DNA of 64,000 nucleotides. It comes from Flectonema sp. DT1601 (taxonomy: Eukaryota; Euglenozoa; Diplonemea; Diplonemida; Diplonemidae). The stretch's first letter is position 1. Every line of letters begins with the position of its first letter. Below are positions 4,043 through 31,232 of the stretch, in pieces. The translations under genes and the position numbers were made by a program. Location: positions 620,001-684,000 of the forward strand of contig OZ025797.1 of the NCBI GenBank assembly GCA_964019425.1, read 5' to 3'. The notes under the pieces are model-generated. The model was not told the DNA's origin, did not search any database, and was given only the letters and a program-made list of their open reading frames with translations.

Positions 4043-7000
4043 TTATGAGAACTTTGCCCATTTGCTGGTTTTTCTCCGCCACTCTTTGTGATGAGAGAGG
4101 ATTTCCTTCCACTGCAAAACAATCGAAGTGCGCGTAACGTTCGTTGGAACTAACACCAGAAAGTGTTCTATAAAATGAAATCGATTTGTCTCAACTTCTT
4201 CAGCTATGAAATCATGAACCGATTTCGGCTCTAAAAGTACTTCATCATTCTCATCAGGAACTAGTTCATCATTCTCATCAGGAACTGGTTCATCATTCTC
4301 ATCAGGAACTAGTCGATCACATAAATTATGAGAGAGCCGGTAAATGGCGAGGGCGGCTTCGAATATCTGCTGCATGTCCATACCGTCAAGCATCTGAAGT
4401 AGAACTCTGTACTTCTTCCAAAAGATCCTCGGATTTCTATTAGCTATTTTTCTTTGTTGTGAAGATCCCCCGAATGTTAACATATACATAACTCTCTGAC
4501 ACCAGAATTTAATATCTGTCCACCACGACTGGTTCTGAAGTCCACTAAAGAATCCAATCTTTGGCCAGGCAGCAGTGGTAGGGTCGTGTGCTATTCTTCT
4601 TAAGAATGTGACTTCATCAAACTGTTCCATACTAACCTCATCAAAAGTAGTACTCATGACACCAATGAGAAGATTAAATAACACGGCAATCAATACGACG
4701 TAGAACAACAAGAAGAAAAGAGTAGCGAACACTGGTCTTGCGGCGTACAGTCGCTGAAAGTCAAACTCACCCATTATCATAAAGAATAATCCTTGAAATG
4801 AGTGTTCGATGTCCTGTATTGTTGTTTGTTGTTGTTGTTGTTGTTTGTATCACTCCTAACAGTATAAAAGAAGACACACAAAAGATAATGATTAACATAC
4901 CCTGTAGGAGTTTACCAGACTTCCGAATACCACCCAGGCAGAGAAAATAAAACCAAACAACACAATAAGACAAATTATTAATAAGTTGAAGATAAGAGAT
5001 CCGGCACGACGAAGGGTTCTGATAATTAAATTCATATCTTTATCAGTTTGAAGAAAATAAAATGTTTTTAAAGACAAGAAGACCACAGTAATACCGTCAG
5101 TGCTTGCGGCTATCCAGGTGAGGTCAGAAATGGTTTCATACTCCTTCGGATAGACATCTGAGCAGAGGATGTGAGATGCTGAAATACCATAACTCAGATA
5201 CCAACCTTTAAACCCCCAAGTGATAACAATTAATACATTTATTATCAATTCTAAAACCAGCCAAATATCTGAAAACAGAGTTCTAATCACAGCTGCAATC
5301 AAACGAATACCTTTCGCCCTCGGAGGACATCCCCAATGAAATAGAGGAAATAACTTTCCGTGATTGTAGGCTGCTTCGTATTTCAGCAACTGATGTTGAG
5401 TCAGCCACTTTCCAACAATTCTCTTTATTGCTGCCCGGAGGAAGAAAACAAACAAAAGGATAAAGGCCATTAAACCGGGTGCCCCAATTGCGAAAGTTTC
5501 AGGGCTCATTTGAAAAAAAGAGAAAGTGTGAATACGTTTACTTGGAAGGAATGCTCCAGAACTAGAAACCTCAACCATGTATTGCATTCTTGTAATCTGT
5601 CTGGTGTTTTGATTATGAACAAAGAACTCAACCATCAGACCTCTAGTGGCAACGTCTACCCAATTCTGCTCTTTTAGAAATTCAAGTTCACTTAAAGCAT
5701 TACTCTGAGTCATACTAATAGGGAATAGCATTGAATATCCACCACATGAATATTGCATTCTATTCATCACACTGGATACGATTCCAATGTATGGAGCGAG
5801 ACCTTTACCCCCTGTCTCATCACAAGACTGGAAGACCCAAGGTCGAAGTTTTTTATAAAGCTTTTCAGCATCAACATTCCCAGCCTCTGCACTGATTCTC
5901 AAGTTCTCTAATTCTATTGTGAATGGAGCGCTAGAATGACTGAAATTGGCACCGTCGAATCCGCCACCAAACTTCTTGGGACCAAATAGGTCGATCAACT
6001 CTTCGGCAGATCTCTCGGCTTTTGATTTGAGGAAAGCCGCATCTTTTTCATAGGAATACTTATCATTCGAACTCCAAGATCCGTAACACTTTTCTAAATA
6101 ATAATTAGAACGATCAGTTGTGTCTTTTGACACTCCTTGAGAGATCCAACGACTCCAAGTATTGGTATTTGAAGTTAACCATCCGCAAGTATCTTCAATA
6201 ATTGAGGAGGCATCACTTTGAGTGAACTTCATATTTTTAATTAAATTATAAACATCAGGAAACCTTGTGTTGAAATCTGACTTGTACAAACTGTGGACCT
6301 CAACTGTCGAATACGCCGACGAGTCAGGCAAAGAAAGACGTGAAGCAGCGACACTTGACAACAGAACGTCCGTATCAAATGACCAAAATAAAAATGACTC
6401 ACCAGCTCTACTCCTCTTCAGCAACTGTTCAGAATACGTGACATGGGAAACTGCAGGTAAAACATCTTCAGGTACCCTTCCTTCATACATAGTACTGAGA
6501 CCGTTGTCACTTATAACTTTTTGAATATCATCCCACCCTCCGAAATCCAGGGAGTTATCTGGCGCATAGATTGCCACTTTTGGCGGTGTCGCACCGTCAT
6601 TTGAGAAATATTGATGAAGCTCGATACTTTCATTTAAACCAACAATCCCATCAACTACACAACGAGGACAAAGAGAAGCTCCACTCGCTGATATGTAGAT
6701 ACCCGGAGTAGGACTACCAACCTGACTGCTGTCAGCAGATATCTCAGAATTTAAAACACCTGAGGTGGTAGAGTTCCACAAAGAGAACACAACATCGAGA
6801 TTCCCAGAAAGTAATTCAGCTTCCGCAACACTACTGGTGATGGGGATGATGGTAGCGGAGACCGACATCTTTTCCTCCAAAAGATATTTAAAAACAGAAG
6901 ACGTCACACGAGAACCCGGAGTCACAGTGACCCCAACCTTCAAACTCCTCGGGAAGGTATCAGGTGACTTCTCTATGCATGTGTCTAATTCCCTGCTGTT

Positions 7001-8929
7001 GTCAACTGAACCACCAGAAAATACGTCCCACGTCTCCCAACTGGTGCTCTGTCTTACGTCACCAGTCGCGTAGCAAGCCTGAGGCAAATTATTCTCAAGC
7101 ATTTCCTTGTGTCCTTCACAATCCACATCAGGAGCACGATACTGTGTTAGCTTAACAGCTCCAATTACCTTATTAGCGTAGTGATGAGTTGTATAGACTC
7201 CGGGTTTGTGATCGTCATCAAATGCGAAGGGAAGCATTGTTTGACCAAACCAATCCCAATATTCATCGAGGTTTCGAATATCACTGAATGTCCACGCGAA
7301 GAATTGATCTGCTGCATCACCAACTTCCTCCAAACCAACAGCTTCATCAATACTAAGACCTAAGTAGAAAGCACCGCTAATGTTTGTACCAAGTTGCGTA
7401 GACATTGCGTACATAAGAAGAAAGATAATATAAAGGATAAAGTGACGCTGAAGTTTCATCTGTATCATTTTATTCTCCGTGTATTCGAGTAAGTATGATA
7501 ATCCATCAGTTTGAACAGATTGTCCTTTAATGCAATGAATAAAGAATCTCCTCTTAGGTATTAAACCTCTGAAGAAGTGGTTCATATTTCCCCAAATCGG
7601 GCAATCAATTTCAGCGACACCAGAAGCTTCAGCGTAGGCGACTTGAAATTCTTTCTCTGTGACACGTCTTCCAGCTAAACTTATAATATCATCATACAAG
7701 TCTTTAACAGTGTGTTGTACGTTAGCTTTGCTACGACGACCATACTTACCTCTCGCAGTGTATTGTTTAGAACCAACTTCTTCATAACTAGCGTCATCAG
7801 GTCGATATCCATCTAAGAAATATTGAAGTCTGTCAACGAACTCATCGTACACTTCTTCACTTACAATTGATTCACAGATCTCCTTTACGTCAGTTGCCAT
7901 TTCCAAGGCTTCATATTTTATTTCATCGTTAGTGTAGTTATTACCAAGTAGTAGCTTACCACACTCAAAGAGATGATCTTTTAGGATTGCGAAGGTTGTC
8001 TTATCACATCCGTAGTTGATGTGTTCGTTATTAGCGGCACCAGTTGATATAAAAAACACGAGTTTGCTCGCTTCAGATTTTGCAGCATTCTCATCGTCCT
8101 TGTTAGTGACGTCACTGATAGCAACTTTTTGATTTAGTCGCCAGACCTTCCCACCGATTTGTTGTTTTGCAAGTATTTGGGTATCGCTGGATGCGAGAAT
8201 GTGGATGAGACTTGAGAGTTGTTCATCAGAAATACGACAATTTAAAGTTCTGTCTTGACGGGTTGTTAGTTCTTTTTCCATCGTAACTTTTAAAAGTTTT
8301 AAAAGTTTCTTACGTTCTACTAACTGCCAAGGGTCTTCTTTCAAAGGTGTGAAGATCTCCACAATCTTCCCCTCCACTAACGGCAGTAGAAAGTCTTTCA
8401 ACTCTTCGGGTTCTAAAGTTTCACTGCCGTCAATGTTTAAAAGGTGGAAGATGTCGTCTCTGTACTCGCTGGTGATTTCTTTATAAAACTTTTTAAATTT
8501 TTGACCGTTAGTTGTCTGAAAATGATCTACTGGCTCGTTGTCCATCCACGGAGCTACAATAGACCAAAGTTTTCGCCAGTCGCAAAGGTTCAGACCGAAG
8601 GCACCAGCCCCATTAATTCGACTCTCGCGGTCAAGAGTCCTCAGTTTTGTTACAAAAACTGATTGATTGATTTTAATGAATGTCAACGCTTTTCGTAATG
8701 TGTGATGTTCGAGAGGATTTTTTATTGAATACTCTAGTGTTAGCTTGTGTAGCTTTCGAAGTCTTTTTTTTTCATCAATTGGTTCAAGAATCACAGGGTC
8801 CAAAGTTTTTTTTTCATAAATCCGACCCTCGTCATCAGGGTAGTTTGTTTCTTCAACATCACCTGTGAAGGACTCCTCCCCCTCTCTCGGTTCAGATGTG
8901 TAGCTCGAGTCTGAGTCACTGTCTGACAT
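4043..8929 (-). CDS. Polycystin (TRPP/PKD2-like) cation channel with EF-hand and solute-binding-protein-like insertion, copy A
   Basis: Two exons (8929-4901 and 4813-4043) join in phase 0 to give 1,599 aa. Visible parts: Ser/Asp-rich N-terminus; EF-hand loop at 165-176 (NIDGSETLEPEE); S1 at about 494-513; first half of the polycystin/TOP domain (515-640); an inserted block at 655-935; second half of TOP (about 1030-1140, with FLKEQNWVDVATRG strongly PKD2-like); S2 about 1147-1166; S3-S5 about 1220-1335; pore and filter MIMGEFDF (1355-1362), where PKD2 channels have LGD; S6 about 1371-1398. The pore is complete only after splicing. The inserted block reads like an OpuAC/ProX-type type 2 periplasmic-binding fold (LKVGVTVTPG start, GNLDVVFSLWNSTTSG). 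The expected role is a Ca2+-sensitive cation channel in the plasma or ciliary membrane. Compared with copy B the C-terminal tail of about 180 aa is lost, and a PDENDE motif is expanded to three copies. The ATG at 8929 is shared with copy B. Confidence 0.9.
4814..4900 (-). other. Intron in channel copy A
   Basis: An 87-bp GT-AG intron with donor AGG|GTATGT and acceptor AATACAG|GAC. Reading through the donor meets a stop after two codons (V-C-stop). Splicing restores the pore-helix sequence NSYR|DIEHSFQGLFF. The intron contains a GTT/AAC triplet run that makes it 12 bp longer than its counterpart in copy B. Confidence 0.88.
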
Positions 8930-9121
8930 TTTATTTTCCTTTTTCTGTTTTATAATTTAAGAAAACATTAATTCATAAAACTAATATAACCAAATGCAAG
9001 CAGCCAACCCGCCGTACAATTCGTCCAATAGAAACAAATAATTTTATTCACAAGAGGAATGGATGGGAAAGTGATGGTTGAGGAGGAACTCCACGAGAGA
9101 AGTATTCTATCCTCGGCATCA
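8930..9121 (-). promoter_or_regulatory. Conserved upstream region of channel copy A, probable promoter/5' UTR
   Basis: The approximately 190 bp before the ATG is almost identical to the region before copy B (15872-16066). The match ends abruptly beyond 9121, so the duplication carried the proximal upstream region but not what lies further out. I see no clear TATA box or known operator. The promoter call rests on position and on the shared block. Confidence 0.4.
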
Positions 9122-10325: not shown

Positions 10326-13300
10326 TTACAACTCAGGACTTTGATCAACTGGAATGAGCGGCATGTCGTCAGCTCCCTGCTGGTCTACAGAATCAACGGG
10401 GTAGGGTATATCTTGTTGTGCAGCACCTTCGATGGGGAAGATCAGAGGAATACCAGGTGGTGACATCATGAATGGTGACCCTTGATGTGACTCACCGTTA
10501 ATAGCAAGTGGTGGTACCATGAGTGGTGTGTCTCCCGCTTCTTGTTGTCCTACACTTTCAATTGGGAAGATTAGAGGACCAGGCGATGGCACCTGTGAAA
10601 GTGGAGAATTTCCTGAAGGAACGCCAAGTGGCAATTGTGAAAGTGGTGTTTCATCCAGGATCATGTCTCCGTTATCGTCGGGTGGCGGAGCTCCACCAAC
10701 CTCATCATCGAAATCCATATCTAGTGGAGCGGGGTACGCAGTGATATCAGCTTCGATAATATCCAACACTTCATCAGATGGATTGATGAGTTGTCTGGCA
10801 CTCTTAATACAAGAATCAATATGTTCTCTCATTTCAAATAAAGATGATTCAAATTCTTCTTCAAGTGAACGTGAGAACTTTGCCCATTTGCTGGTTTCTG
10901 TCCGCCACTCTTTGTGATGAGAGAGGATTTCCTTCCACTGCCAACTAACTGAAGTGTGCATAAAGTTTGTTGGAACTAACACCAGAAAGTGTTCTATAAA
11001 ATGAAATCGATTTGGCTCAACTTCTTCAGCTATGAAATCGTGAACTGATTTCGGCTCTAAAAGTTCTTCAGCATTCTCATCAGGAACTAGTCGATCACAT
11101 AAATTACGAGAGAGCTGATGCATGACGAGGACGGCTTCGAATATCTGCTGCATGTCCATACCGTCAAGCATCTGAAGTAGAACTCTGTACTTCCTCCAAA
11201 AGATCCTCGGATTCCTATTAGCTGCGAGGACCATTCTTCCTTGCTGTGCAGATCTCCAGAATGTTAACATATACATAACTCTCTGACACCAGAATTTAAT
11301 ATCTGTCCACCACGACTGGTTCTGAAGTCCACTAAAGAATCCAATCTTTGGCCAGGCAGCAGTGGTAGGGTCGTGTGCTATTCTTCTTAAGAATGTGACT
11401 TCATCAAACTGTTCCATACTAACCTCATCAAAAGTAGTACTCATGACACCAATGAGAAGATTAAATAACACGGCAATCAATACGACGTAGAACAACAAGA
11501 AGAACAGAGTAGCGAACACTGGTCTTGCGGCGTACAGTCGCTGAAAGTCAAACTCACCCATTATCATAAAGAATAATCCTTGAAATGAGTGTTCGATGTC
11601 CTGTATTGTTGTTTGTTGTTTGTATCACTCCTAACAGTATAAAAGAAGACACACAAAAGATAACGATTAACATACCCTGTAGGAGTTTACCAGACTTCCG
11701 AATACCACCCAGGCAGAGAAAATAAAACCAAACAACACAATAAGACAAATTATTAATAAGTTGAAGATAAGAGATCCGGCACGACGAAGGGTTCTGATAA
11801 TTAAATTCATATCTTTATCAGTTTGAAGAAAATAAAATGTTTTTAAAGACAAGAAGACCACAGTAATACCGTCAGTGCTTGCGGCTATCCAGGTGAGGTC
11901 AGAAATGGTTTCATACTCCTTCGGATAGACATCTGAGCAGAGGATGTGAGATGCTGAAATACCATAACTCAGATACGAGCCTTTAAACCCCCAAGTGATA
12001 ACAACTAATAAATTTATTATCAATTCTAAAACCAGCCAAATATCTGAAAACAGAGTTCTAATCACAGCTGCAATTAAACTAATACCTTTCGCCCTCGGAG
12101 GACATCCCCAATGAAATAGAGGAAATAACTTTCCGTGATTGTAGGCTGCTTCGTATTTCAGCAACTGATGTTGAGTCAGCCACATTCTAATAAATCTCTT
12201 TATTGTAGCCCAGAGAAAGAAAATAAACAAAAGGGTCAAGATCATTAAACCGATTACCCAAAATGTATATTTTTCAGGGTTCTTTTGATATAAAGAGAAA
12301 GTGTGAATACGTTTACTTGGAAGGAATGCTCCAGAACTAGAAACCTCAACCATGTATTGCATTCTTGTAATCTGTCTGGTGTTTTGATTATGAACAAAGA
12401 ACTCAACCATCAGACCTCTAGTGGCAACGTCTACCCAATTCTGCTCTTTTAGAAATTCAAGTTCACTTAAAGCATTACTCTGAGTCATACTAATAGGGAA
12501 TAGCATTGAGTATCCACTACATGAATATTGCATTCTATTCATCATACTGGATACGATTCCAATGTATGGAGCGAGACCTTTACCCCCTGTCTCATCACAA
12601 GACTGGAAGACCCAAGGTCGAAGTTTTTTATAAAGCTTTTCAGCATCAACATTCCCAGCCTCTGCGCTGATTCTCAAGTTCTCTAATTCCGTTGTGAATG
12701 GAGCGCTAGAATGACTGAAATTGGCGCCGTCGAATCCGCCACCAAACTTCTTGGGACCAAATAGGTCGATCAACTCTTCGGCGGATCTTTCGGCTTTTGA
12801 TTTGAGGAAAGCCGCATCTTTTTCATAGGAATACTTATCATTCGAACTCCAAGATCCGTAACACTTTTCTAAATAATAATTAGAACGATCAGTTGTGTCT
12901 TTTGACACTCCTTGAGAGATCCAACGACTCCAAGTATTGGTATTTGAAGTTAACCATCCGCAAGTATCTTCAATAATTGAGGAGGCATCACTTTGAGTGA
13001 ACTTCATATTTTTAATTAAATTATAAACATCAGGAAACCTTGTGTTGAAATCTGACTTATACAAACTGTGGACCTCAACTTTCGAATACGCCGACGAGTC
13101 AGGCAAAGAAAGACGTGAAGCAGCGACACTTGACAACAGAACGTCCGTATCAAACGACCAAAATAAAAATGACTCACCAGCTCTACTCCTCTTCAGCAAC
13201 TGTTCAGAATACGTGACATGGGAAACTGCAGGTAAAACATCTTCAGGTACCCTTCCTTCATACATAGTACTGAGACCGTTGTCACTTATAACTTTTTGAA

Positions 13301-15871
13301 TATCATCCCACCCTCCGAAATCCAGGGAGTTATCTGGCGCATAGATTGCCACTTTTGGCGGTGTCGCACCGTCATTTGAGAAATATTGATGAAGCTCGAT
13401 ACTTTCATTTAAACCAGCAATCCCATCAACTACACAACGAGGACAAAGAGAAGCTCCACTCGCTGATATGTAGATACCCGGAGTAGGACTACCAACCTGA
13501 CTGCTGTCAGCAGATATCTCAGAATTTAAAACACCTGAGGTGGTAGAATTCCACAGAGAGAACACAACATCGAGATTCCCAGAAAGTAATTCAGCTTCCG
13601 CAACACTACTGGTGATGGGGATGATGGTAGCGGAGACCGACATCTTTTCCTCCAAAAGATATTTAAAAACAGAAGACGTCACACGAGAACCCGGAGTCAC
13701 AGTGACCCCAACCTTCAAACTCCTCGGGAAGGTATCAGGTGACTTCTCTATGCATGTGTCTAATTCCCTGCTGTTGTCAACTGAACCACCAGAAAATACG
13801 TCCCACGTCTCCCAACTGGTGCTCTGTCTTACGTCACCAGTCGCGTAGCAAGCCTGAGGCAAATTATTCTCAAGCATTTCCTTGTGTCCTTCACAATCCA
13901 CATCAGGAGCACGATACTGTGTTAGCTTAACAGCTCCAATTACCTTATTAGCGTAGTGATGAGTTGTATAGACTCCGGGTTTGTGATCGTCATCAAATGC
14001 GAAGGGAAGCATTGTTTGACCAAACCAATCCCAATATTCATCGAGGTTTCGAATATCACTGAATGTCCACGCGAAGAATTGATCTGCTGCATCACCAACT
14101 TCCTCCAAACCAACAGCTTCATCAATACTAAGACCTAAGTAGAAAGCACCGTTAATGTTTGTACCAACTTGCATAGATACTGCGTACATAAGAAGAAAGA
14201 TAATATAAAGGATAAAGTGACGCTGAAGTTTCATCTGTATCATTTTATTCTCCGTGTATTCGAGTAAGTATGATAATCCATCAGTTTGAACAGATTGTCC
14301 TTTAATGCAATGAATAAAGAATCTCCTCTTAGGTATTAAACCTCTGAAGAAGTGGTTCATATTTCCCCAAATCGGGCAATCATTTTCAGCGACACCAGAA
14401 GCTTCAGCGTAGGCGACTTGAAACTCTTTCTCTGTGACACGTCTTTCAGCTAAACTTATAATATCATCATACAAGTCTTTAACAGTGTGTTGTACGTTAG
14501 CTTTGCTACGACGACCATACTTACCTCTCGCAGTGTATTGTTTAGAACCAACTTCTTCATAACTAGCGTCATCAGGTTGATATCCATCTAAGAAATATTG
14601 AAGTCTGTCAACGAACTCATCGTACACTTCTTCACTTACAATTGATTCACAGATCTCCTTTACGTCAGTTGCCATTTCCAAGGCTTCATATTTTATTTCA
14701 TCGTTAGTGTAGTTATTACTACGCAGTAGCTTACCACACTCAAAGAGATGATCTTTTAGGATTGCGAAGGTTGTCTTATCACATCCGTAGTTGATGTGTT
14801 CGTTATTAGCGGCACCAGTTGATGTAAAAAACACGAGTCTGCTCGCTTCAGATTTTGCAGCATTCTCATCGTCCTTGTTAGTGACGTCACTGATAGCAAC
14901 TTTTTGATTTAGTCGCCAGACCTTCCCACCGATTTGTTGTTTTGCAAGTATTTGGGTATCGCTGGATGCGAGAATGTGGATGAGACTTGAGAGTTGTTCA
15001 TCAGAAATACGACAATTCAAAGTTCTGTCTTGACGGGTTGTTAGTTCTTCTTCCATCGTAACTTTTAAAAGTTTTAAAAGTTTCTTACGTTCTACTAACT
15101 GCCAAGGGTCTTCTTTCAAAGGTGTGAAGATCTCCACAATCTTCCCCTCCACTAACGGTAGTAGAAAGTCTTTCAACTCTTCGGGTTCTAAAGTTTCACT
15201 GCCGTCAATGTTTAAAAGGTGGAAGATGTCGTCTCTGTACTCGCTGGTGATTTCTTTATAAATCTTTTTAATTTTTGGATGGTAAGTTGTCTGACAAGGA
15301 TCTAATGGCTCGTTGTCCATCCACGGAGCGCAGAACGTTGGCATGGATTCACCACCGCTGGCTGCGTCACATCTGTTTGGTTGTTTAGTTTTAGAGATGA
15401 ATAACTTTGAGATAATTATTTTCAAACAACAGATTACAAAACACACCTCGATTGGAACTCAGCTCCCACAATAGACCAAAGTTTTCGCCAGTCGTAAAGG
15501 TTCAGACCGAAGGCACCAGCCCCAACAATTCGACTCTCGCGGTCAAGAGTCCTCAGTTTTGTTACAAAAACCGATTGATTGATTTTAATGAATGCCAACG
15601 CTTTTCGTAATGTGTGATGTCTGAGAGGATTTTCTATTGTGTATCTTAGTGTTAGCTTGTGTAGCTTTCGAAGTCTTTTTTTTTCATCAATTGGTTCAAG
15701 AATCACAGAGTCTAAAGGTATTTCACGAGTCTGATCCTCGTGATCATCAGGGAGGGTTGTTTCCTCAACATCTGCGAACCATTTAAAAGCACCGCAGGCA
15801 TCCCTCTCATCCTTTTCGATGATCGTTTCCGAATCAGATGTGTAGCTCGAGTCTGAGTCACTGTCTGACAT
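10326..15871 (-). CDS. Polycystin (TRPP/PKD2-like) cation channel with EF-hand and solute-binding-protein-like insertion, copy B
   Basis: Three exons (15871-15447, 15372-11676, 11600-10326) join in frame to 1,798 aa. The domain order matches copy A: acidic Ser/Asp N-terminus, EF-hand loop NIDGSETLEPEE, S1, TOP domain split by the solute-binding-like block (DNA about 12900-13742), S2-S6, and filter MIMGEFDF. Differences from A: a different N-terminal stretch after residue 12; 21 extra residues with an added intron before APWMDNEP; a different S2 helix; a single PDENAE instead of three PDENDE-type repeats; and a Pro/Asp-rich tail of about 180 aa containing repeated PLIFPIE segments. This long tail is probably the ancestral state, because A shows a deletion at this point. 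Polyadenylation signal AATAAA lies a few bases after the stop. The expected role is that of copy A, possibly with different tail partners or regulation. Confidence 0.9.
11601..11675 (-). other. Intron before the pore exon, channel copy B
   Basis: A 75-bp GT-AG intron at the same place and phase as in copy A (donor AGG|GTATGT, acceptor AATACAG|GAC). It has fewer AAC triplets than copy A. Confidence 0.88.
15373..15446 (-). other. Extra intron in channel copy B, absent from copy A
   Basis: A 74-bp GT-AG intron with donor CGAG|GTGTGT and acceptor CCAAACAG|ATG, phase 2. Reading through it gives a stop; splicing keeps the frame (EFQSR|CDAASGG). Copy A has neither the intron nor the 21 flanking codons. 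Confidence 0.75.
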
Positions 15872-16066
15872 TTTATTTTCCCCCTTTTTCTGTTTTATAA
15901 TTTAAGAAAACATTAATTCATAAAACTAATATAACCAAATGCAAGCAGCCAACCCGCCGTACAATTCGTCCAATAGAAACAAATAATTTTATTCACAAGA
16001 GGAATGGATGGGAAAGTGATGGTTGAGGAGGAACTCCACGAGAGAAGTATTCTATCCTCGGCATCA
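15872..16066 (-). promoter_or_regulatory. Conserved upstream region of channel copy B, probable promoter/5' UTR
   Basis: Nearly identical to 8930-9121 upstream of copy A apart from a few inserted C bases next to the ATG. The similarity stops at about 16066, which marks the edge of the duplicated segment. Confidence 0.4.
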
Positions 16067-16256: not shown

Positions 16257-18216
16257 TTAAGCAGAGTGAGGCTTTACAATATCTCCAAATATCAAAGACG
16301 GAGGCGGGCGGGTGAGTCGCGACGATGAGCCAGCAGTTTGTTGTGCAACCGCAGCAGCTCTCGGCGTCGATTTCGGAGTCGCAGCTGATGAAAAGACATT
16401 CGGCAGTGAGTTGGCCTTAACAGAACAAACACAGAGACTGTACATCTCATGTAACCACACACAGAGTGAATGTGAGCAACCTGAAGCTTTCATAACGTTA
16501 TCGGGAGAACACTTTTGATCGGAAGAATACTTTTTTAATATTCCAATAAAGTCTTCTGGATGATCAGACACATCATCAGGTGCTTCTTTTAATCTAATTA
16601 ACATCTCAGATGTTCCTAAGTGATGTGTTGCCATTCCCCAATTCACGTTTGGGTAACGAAGGACTCGAAGTACCGTAAGAACAGTCTGTTTGGTTGTGTT
16701 ATTACATGTTACAGATGTTTATTACAACAGAAATCAACATCTAAACAAAAGAATCCTAACATACTTTTCTAACAGCAGACGGTGGATAGATTAATGATTT
16801 AATCTGACGAAGGGTTTTCATTTTTATTGGAACCGAGAGAGTGACGTTGTCGTTGATTTGATTATCTCCTCTCTGTGGTGTTGTAAATGAGGACATCGAA
16901 GTAATTAAGGAACTACTCGATATTGGTAGTGACTTCCGAAGTATTTCTGAAATCTCAGTCTGCATTTGCCGACTTTTTTGAAATAACGCTGCCGTCTGAT
17001 ATGCAGGTCTGTCACCAACTGTATCAGCATCACCATCACTTCCCTTTCGCATAGCTTTAACAGGAGATTTTTGTGATCCAGATCCATTCTCGGGTTCGGC
17101 ATTTTTTCCAGCGGGTATCAGTAGTGGCCGCAGCTTCTTAATTTGACAAGCACTTTTTTTTAACCGAGACTGAACCTGTAATAAATACTGTTGTTGCGGA
17201 CCGATGACACATCCTGGGCGCATAAGTCGCATCCACGTTATGGCAGACTCTGCAGTAAAATGATGATATTTAATAAGATAACATCCTATCAATGTTCCAG
17301 TCCTACCAAGACCAGCTTTACAATGTATTGCTATCCCACCAGGTGTTGACTCAATGAATTCAAAGAATCTCATTATAATATTGTCACTCGGGTTACTGCC
17401 GTCGGTGTATATCAAATCGATGTGTCTGAAACCAGCCTCCGTAAAAACTTGACGAGAGTACGTCTTCCTACAGAGTCGTATTATTCCAGTTATGCCGCGG
17501 TCTCGAAATACTTTGCAATACTCTTCAGGGCCCCAACTCTTGAAGCCATAAGCTGCTTCATTAGAAATAGCATTTGGTGTACACAACGCAATAAATCTTT
17601 TATGAGGTTCCTCTCCCTTCGCTGATGAGTTGCTAGTCGGAGGGACAATCCAATTCCAATCTCCGTTTTGAGGCTGTTCGTAGAAATCATATTCTGAGCA
17701 ATCAAACTTCCTCCAATTAATCCATCCGAGGTCTCTACCACGTGATAATCCTTGAAGACAATTTAATATGGTACAGTTAAATGTTGAAATCCCAACACTA
17801 ACATCACGAAATGGAAGGAATGGAGGGTAACTTGAACAGATTAAATTCCACGCGCGTTCCGGAGAGTATCCCAAAGATAGTACACAAAATGCTGTTATGA
17901 GAAATCCTGCATTGGCGCGTTTATGTCCATCGTGCGATGAGTAAAAATAAAGTTTTTTATTCTCTAATTCTGGTGCGTTTAGATTTCTGTGACACGATCG
18001 ACAAAACTTAACCAACGCGGACATGTTGAGAGGTCCAAAGTCTGCTTCAAAAGGTTCGTAGACCAGATCAATGTCGGCAGTCCAAAAATAATAATTCTGA
18101 TCACTCTCCGGGTGTCCTCTCAAACTAATGAAATACAACTTGTCCGTTAGAATGGTACTTGCCCGTCCTAAGACGGATGCACCCAAAGGCCCTTCACCCT
18201 GTTGCTCTAATTCCAT
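16257..18216 (-). CDS. cdc14: CDC14-type dual-specificity phosphatase fused to a dynein-like microtubule-binding domain
   Basis: Exon 1 (18216-16765) and exon 2 (16685-16257) join in phase 0 to 626 aa. Residues about 20-350 are a full CDC14: N-terminal domain (FEADFGPLN, LPFRD), then the catalytic domain with HCKAGLGRTG (nucleophile C299, R305), general acid D272 in YTDGSNPSD, and IGPQQQYL. The catalytic residues are intact. CDC14 removes phosphate from CDK-type Ser-Pro sites and acts in mitotic exit and at cilia. After a Ser-rich linker, residues about 472-560 align with the dynein heavy-chain stalk tip: IKSLIYPPSAV, a helix crossing the intron, NWGMATHHLG, then CSPDNVMKASGCSHSLCVW, like the dynein helix that re-enters the stalk. 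Two proline landmarks bracket it as in dynein. A basic Ser/Pro/Ala tail follows. Fusion confidence is good, because the homology spans both exons in frame. Confidence 0.85.
16686..16764 (-). other. Intron joining the CDC14 and dynein-like parts
   Basis: A 79-bp GT-AG intron, donor AAAA|GTATGT, acceptor ACCAAACAG|ACTG. Unspliced, the first exon would end two codons later in V-C-stop, exactly as at the channel introns. Splicing yields PPSAVRK|TVLTVLRVLR, which continues one dynein-like helix. Confidence 0.82.
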
Positions 18217-31047: not shown

Positions 31048-31232
31048 TCGGTGTATTTTGGGGTATTTTGGGCCATTTTGGGGTATTTTGGGCCATTTTG
31101 GGGTATTTTGGGCCATTTTGGGGTATTTTGGGCCATTTTGGGGTATTTTGGGCCACTTTGGGGTATTTTGGGCCATTTTGGGGTATTTTGGGCCACTTTG
31201 GGGTATTTTAGGCAAAAAAAGTGGGGTATTTT
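31048..31232 (+). repeat. 20-bp minisatellite (GGGGTATTTTGGGCCATTTT)
   Basis: About eight to nine head-to-tail copies with few variants (CACTTT for CATTTT in some copies). All three plus-strand frames are open through it and read Gly/Phe/Trp-rich repeats. This is a consequence of the period and not evidence of coding. Confidence 0.92.

Follow-up and report, generated by a model that had tools for sequence, protein, structure and literature searches.

A CDC14 phosphatase with a dynein microtubule-binding domain in its tail, predicted from a diplonemid genome

The CDC14 gene and the domain in its tail

The window analysed here is a 64,000 nt stretch of the genome of the diplonemid Flectonema sp. 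DT1601 (contig OZ025797.1, positions 620,001 to 684,000); the coordinates of the gene below are those of the window. Its minus strand contains a two-exon gene for a protein of 626 aa in which a CDC14 phosphatase is followed by a domain that sequence comparisons identify, with good support, as the microtubule-binding domain (MTBD) of the dynein heavy-chain stalk tip. The same architecture was found in P0002, a 657 aa protein annotated as 'putative tyrosine-protein phosphatase cdc-14 [Diplonema papillatum]', and these comparisons leave us highly confident that the fusion is real and conserved, not an accident of the gene model. The features of the gene are as follows (P0002 to P0006 are related CDC14 proteins):

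18216-16257 (-): protein-coding gene, 626 aa, two exons, start ATG at 18216
16765..18216 (-): exon 1, residues 1-484, with the entire CDC14 phosphatase, the linker and the first 21 MTBD residues
17740..18153 (-): DSPn domain, residues 22-159 (Pfam PF14671, E 5.7e-45)
17401-17403 (-): catalytic D272, just ahead of the DSPc match (residue check)
17191..17376 (-): DSPc, part of the catalytic domain, residues 281-342 (Pfam PF00782, E 5.7e-12)
16933..16995 (-): conserved helix in the linker, TAALFQKSRQMQTEISEILRK, residues 408-428, with a similar stretch in P0002-P0006
16765..16827 (-): first part of the MTBD, residues 464-484, IKMKTLRQIKSLIYPPSAVRK (PDB phmmer and stalk profile)
16686..16764 (-): intron of 79 nt, phase 0 after codon 484, within the MTBD, GTATGT...AACCAAACAG, GT-AG
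16685-16260 (-): exon 2, the rest of the MTBD and the tail
16428..16685 (-): second part of the MTBD, residues 485-570 (PDB phmmer, profiles, exon-2 model)
16287..16319 (-): C-terminal motif RLTRPPPSLIF (RLxRPxxSLIF), residues 607-617 (motif scan)
16257..16259 (-): stop codon TAA

A phmmer search of the PDB with the C-terminal 190 aa gave 17 matches at E <= 10, the best being 8glv_Fm (E 2.8e-8). All were heavy chains or constructs of dynein, or AAA+ chains of dynein length, and inner-arm dyneins were among the best of them. A profile was also made from stalk tips encoded in the same genome. The 22 used were those of its 28 PF12777 matches that had more than 200 aligned residues and did not look motorless (an AAA ring was not a selection criterion). 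With the database size set to 120, the profile was used to score 124 sequences, namely the best 120 of 1220 CDC14s, the spliced window protein and three motorless stalk proteins. The window protein scored 38.9 bits (E 4.9e-12) and P0002 38.8, followed by P0005 (13.8), P0003 (8.2, with only about the first 20 MTBD residues present), P0006 (6.1), the exon-1 product P0001 (5.8) and the next best CDC14, P0033 (4.5). The scores of P0006 and P0003 say little by themselves, so these two are carried by their place in the tree and by alignment. A profile of the C-termini of four fusions reached dynein at E 7e-14; its 57 matches at E <= 1 comprised three aminopeptidases (0.72-0.75), one 4583-residue chain with a radial-spoke name and otherwise dynein-type proteins. 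P0002 itself matched dynein at E 4.6e-9 in a sequence search. The window and Diplonema MTBDs aligned with a score of 213, against a mean of 25.5 (sd 4.1) for shuffled sequences, and none of 1000 shuffles reached 213.

The preliminary description of this DNA had put the identity of the domain at the mercy of a profile search, and residues 464-567 did match dynein MTBD profiles. It had also pointed to two prolines as landmarks: the PP is solid, the second (SLPN) less so. The core of the domain (PP, W, LC.W) is kept in the window protein. The helices at 501-597 of the P0002 model follow the H1-H6 order of an MTBD, and the model of the window's exon 2 has six predicted helices between positions 2 and 93; the Foldseek comparison with solved MTBDs gave E-values that were not significant. 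The Pfam model of the dynein stalk, PF12777, did not match the window protein at E <= 1, or P0002, P0005 and P0006 at E <= 0.1, perhaps because its 344 positions include the coiled coils of the stalk. Pfam reported neither an AAA domain nor a coiled-coil stalk in the 626 aa protein at E <= 1, in line with the absence of both remarked on earlier; it is thus not a dynein motor.

As for the phosphatase, the preliminary description had read a complete CDC14 with D272, C299 and R305 intact. All three residues were found at those positions, the latter two within HCKAGLGRTG (residues 298-307), and Pfam recognised both DSPn and DSPc. Fold and phylogenetic place agree in making it a member of the CDC14 class. 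Over the aligned fold, the P0002 model had 44% identity to mouse CDC14A, and a fold search with the whole P0002 model gave phosphatase-type matches only among the 50 listed, this one domain filling the list. As a CDC14, the window phosphatase would be expected to act on pSer-Pro-x-Lys/Arg sites.

Splice junction, conservation and origin of the fusion

The in-frame intron of 79 bp proposed beforehand was recovered with the same boundaries (16764-16686). Eight acceptors were tried, two of which retained the long frame of exon 2 (introns of 79 and 160 nt); the 79 nt choice yields the 626 aa protein and an alignment with P0002 that crosses the junction without a gap (AVRK/TVLTVLRVL in the window, VVKR/TIFTMMRVL in P0002, the slash marking the junction). 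In this genome, the dynein gene L024 likewise has introns with GTATGT donors and ACAG ends. The ENA-derived P0003 reads LTSPPAAVVK and then continues with unrelated sequence from exactly the junction codon of the window gene. This break, which is what an unspliced gene call would show, suggests that the intron position is common to both, and it supports, together with the gapless alignment with P0002, the joining of the two exons.

Related genomes had been named as a place to look for the same fusion, and P0002 provides it in D. papillatum, with 97% query coverage and 45% identity to the window protein. The catalytic part is 58% identical and the MTBD 36%; between them, identity is 35% over residues 356-430 and 22% over residues 437-463. 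In the tail, 11 of 16 aligned residues agree. P0005 and P0006, which have Trinity transcript names (EukProt), each encode CDC14 in a single frame with the tail motif and an MTBD that has diverged. The gene model of P0004 (482 aa) ends ahead of any MTBD and has no bearing on the fusion either way. In a CDC14 tree of 61 rows (SH-aLRT support), which took in P0002-P0060 of the 120 listed, the window protein, P0002, P0003 and P0004 formed one clade (98), joined by P0005 and P0006 (99); the next to join were P0009 and P0013 (91), neither of which shows an MTBD. Beyond the fusion clade, the stalk profile found an MTBD in no further CDC14 among the best 120 of 1220. The gain of the MTBD is therefore placed, on present sequences, on the branch from which the diplonemid clade arose. 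No relative of exon 2 turned up in viral contigs. When the C-terminal 197 aa of the window protein were used alone in a protein search, only its own exon 1 product was found, and a profile search with the C-termini of the four fusions found only the window's exon 2; since both needed exact 5-residue words and overlooked P0002, nothing can be concluded from them about absence. Full-text searches of open-licence papers, aimed at the fusion or at MTBDs outside dyneins, turned up no description of a CDC14-MTBD fusion, which agrees with the earlier remark that none was known; the papers they matched were on KKT4 or, PMC8076904 among them, unrelated by title.

Two readings would do away with the fusion. 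One takes the locus as two adjacent genes, or the intron as wrong, with CDC14 reading to its own stop (a 491-codon frame) and exon 2 being separate. The database gene call P0001, which stops at 486 aa, and the listing of part of exon 2 as a 125 aa protein, P0121, speak in its favour. It is nevertheless very improbable: homology to the MTBD begins in exon 1 and goes on in exon 2, P0002 holds both halves in a single protein, and P0005 and P0006, with their transcript names, likewise have all the parts in one frame, the MTBD being diverged. Read-through between two genes was rejected on the same grounds, the dynein homology spanning the intron and P0002 being in one piece. The other reading, that of a chance likeness between helical bundles, could appeal to the Foldseek E-values; those of the sequence searches (2.8e-8, 4.9e-12 and 7e-14, and 4.6e-9 for P0002) rule it out in practice.

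The tail of the fusion proteins has two further conserved elements. The linker helix contains an invariant Gln (MQ in the window protein and in P0002-P0006). In the P0002 model there is a helix at 415-440, with mean pLDDT values of 50, 70 and 78 for the blocks over 411-440 and flanks under 50. In fungal and vertebrate CDC14s, a tail element that is helical in vertebrates is described as putting an invariant Gln in the active site (PMC11407943, PMC9977832). By analogy, the linker helix is a candidate for, and may be, the equivalent of such a SLiCE-like pseudosubstrate or catalytic-enhancer helix. The second element, the C-terminal motif, was scanned as R[LP]xRPx(2-3)[ST][LVI][LIV][FS] in 120 CDC14s (the window protein plus P0002-P0120). 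It occurred in six of them, namely four fusion proteins (that of the window, P0002, P0005 and P0006) and two unfused ones (P0010 and P0013), and in none of 200 shuffled sets; in all six carriers it ends 5 to 36 residues from the C-terminus. Its presence in P0010 and P0013, which lack an MTBD, argues for insertion of the MTBD and against its having been appended. The simplest reading makes this motif the older element, with the MTBD coming in later between it and the catalytic part.

Two other CDC14s were seen along the way. Contig C15 (L021 601-2157, minus strand) has a second CDC14 paralogue, long-branched and with a glutamine-rich N-terminus, in which no dynein match was found. P0008 (809 aa) is a CDC14 with PF01217 and PF00928, which we take to be clathrin-adaptor domains, in its precomputed Pfam list; it is either another fusion or a merger of gene models.

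Motorless stalk tips in the genome and other features of the window

The search for MTBDs covered the entire assembly (89.5 Mb, 92 contigs). It also matched contig C19, and three motorless frames were recognised in the genome:

L022 2041-5622 (-), contig C19: repeat protein, 1193-codon frame, MTBD over residues 243-342 (PF12777 E 0.0014, below the family's cut-off)
L023 4522-5169 (-), contig C9: stand-alone stalk, 177 residues from the first Met, above the PF12777 cut-off
L026 4141-5043 (+), contig C37: stand-alone stalk, 300-codon frame, above the PF12777 cut-off

The C19 frame has 11 RGR[IFL][GD][VI] repeats and no AAA+ match; its N-terminus looks SAM-like by eye, and Pfam gives no SAM. The C9 and C37 frames contain a stalk with some coiled coil and lack a motor. 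No Walker-A-like GxxxxGK[ST] was present in the six frames of 9.9 kb around C9, C37 or C19. In a tree of 29 rows the C19 MTBD grouped with the CDC14 MTBDs, apart from the 22 stalks and the two stand-alone stalks (100/98), and the same grouping was obtained (99/98) with 25 rows, P0005, P0006, C16 and C13 having been left out as long or odd rows. It is slightly more likely than not that in diplonemid-like flagellates the dynein tip became a motor-free, portable domain, present in CDC14 and the large repeat protein (as one freed lineage) and in the stand-alone stalks, that would give the phosphatase and scaffold proteins bearing it a grip of their own on dynein's tubulin site. On contig C20 (L047 4548-5603, minus strand), a poorly defined gene has a stretch with weak likeness to an MTBD (E 0.0013 when searched with that of the repeat protein).

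Elsewhere in the window, two adjacent and very similar polycystin-type channel genes were recognised by eye on the minus strand (4043-8956 and 10326-15901). In part of the second (11667-15365), the polycystin domain is preceded by one of the OpuAC substrate-binding-protein type (residues 549-798 of the scanned frame, E 4.2e-10); this gene possibly encodes a channel with a built-in ligand-binding module. About 140 nt of the second copy (~15327-15466, minus strand), absent from the first, are probably an intron plus some extra codons. Near-identical units, A-rich on the plus strand and for the most part spaced at 1356 bp, form a long array at ~33853-63180, and a minisatellite, ATTTTGGGGTATTTTGGGCC, lies at 31055-31213. 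Rfam had no match within the window at gathering thresholds.

Possible function and comparison with known systems

Partner proteins are usually credited with bringing CDC14 to spindles, centrosomes and basal bodies. The likeliest function of the fused MTBD, and one that we consider fairly probable, is that of a built-in microtubule tether, as the preliminary description had inferred. A dynein MTBD would have been inserted into the CDC14 tail in an ancestor common to Diplonema. Joined to the phosphatase by ~100 residues, most of them disordered in the Diplonema model, it would hold the enzyme on the microtubules of the axoneme, the basal body or the spindle, and local dephosphorylation of Ser-Pro-x-Lys/Arg sites on microtubule-bound proteins would follow. 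Having neither AAA ring nor stalk, the tether would be passive, with no switching by ATP.

According to PMC7042235, the yeast MTBD contacts tubulin via H1, H3 and H6, through mostly basic residues and one H1 glutamate. The net charge of H1 over 14 residues is +3 in the window protein and P0002 and +1 in P0005 and P0006, while the 22 stalks of the same genome have a mean of 0.09 and a maximum of +2. At the H6 position occupied by Arg in C39 (cytoplasmic-like by its PDB matches) and C35, the window protein and P0002 have Lys, P0005 and P0006 have no Lys, and 9 of the 22 stalks have Lys or Arg. The H1 glutamate is apparently replaced in the fusion MTBD. This pattern fits a basic tubulin-facing surface that has been kept or altered.

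Two other functions were weighed against a tether. The former MTBD might no longer grip microtubules and serve as a helical protein-protein module, for axonemal or basal-body docking or for folding back on the phosphatase. The missing coiled-coil stalk, the apparent replacement of the H1 glutamate and the strong divergence of the MTBD in P0005 and P0006 all speak for such a module, and the clade that the CDC14-type and repeat-protein MTBDs form apart from the 22 stalks (100/98) fits a changed job. On the other side, the core (PP, W, LC.W) and 36% identity to Diplonema have been retained, the H1 of the window and Diplonema proteins has gained basic character and not lost it, and both keep the H6 lysine; we regard this explanation as rather unlikely, though it is the main alternative to a tether. 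Alternatively, the MTBD might compete with dynein, so that CDC14 on dynein's tubulin site blocks or licenses stepping while it dephosphorylates axonemal dyneins. Common homology would imply an identical tubulin site, if binding has been kept, and inner-arm dyneins stand high among the PDB matches; one phosphatase could, we infer, hardly cover the axonemal sites, and this possibility seems distinctly improbable. If the tether is real, this is a version of CDC14 with its microtubule address built in. Studies of the dynein MTBD treat it as the working end of a stalk; its natural and conserved occurrence on an enzyme would show it to be removable and reusable, and would offer a ready test of how much affinity remains without the stalk.

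The window MTBD has the same sequence core and helix order as the stalk tip of dynein heavy chains. It differs from these in lacking the stalk coiled coil and the AAA+ ring, and so an ATP-driven switch, and from the stalks sampled in this genome in its more basic H1 and its own clade. The phosphatase resembles human CDC14A/B and yeast Cdc14 in DSPn and DSPc, in the equivalents of D272, C299 and R305 and in having short motifs in its tail, but differs from them in the dynein MTBD that the tail contains. An engineered seryl-tRNA synthetase-MTBD (PDB 3err), known here from its match row and alignment, likewise has an MTBD on a foreign protein. That construct is man-made, presumably with the MTBD set on a coiled-coil base, whereas the window fusion is natural and has no such base. 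The CDC14 of Phytophthora infestans is also microtubule-associated; it bound microtubules in vitro, with 65% pelleted in one experiment and 76% in another, and is found at basal bodies, and the main text of that report makes no mention of dynein (PMC3038932). A microtubule-bound CDC14 is as such not new; the means, a dynein MTBD, would be.
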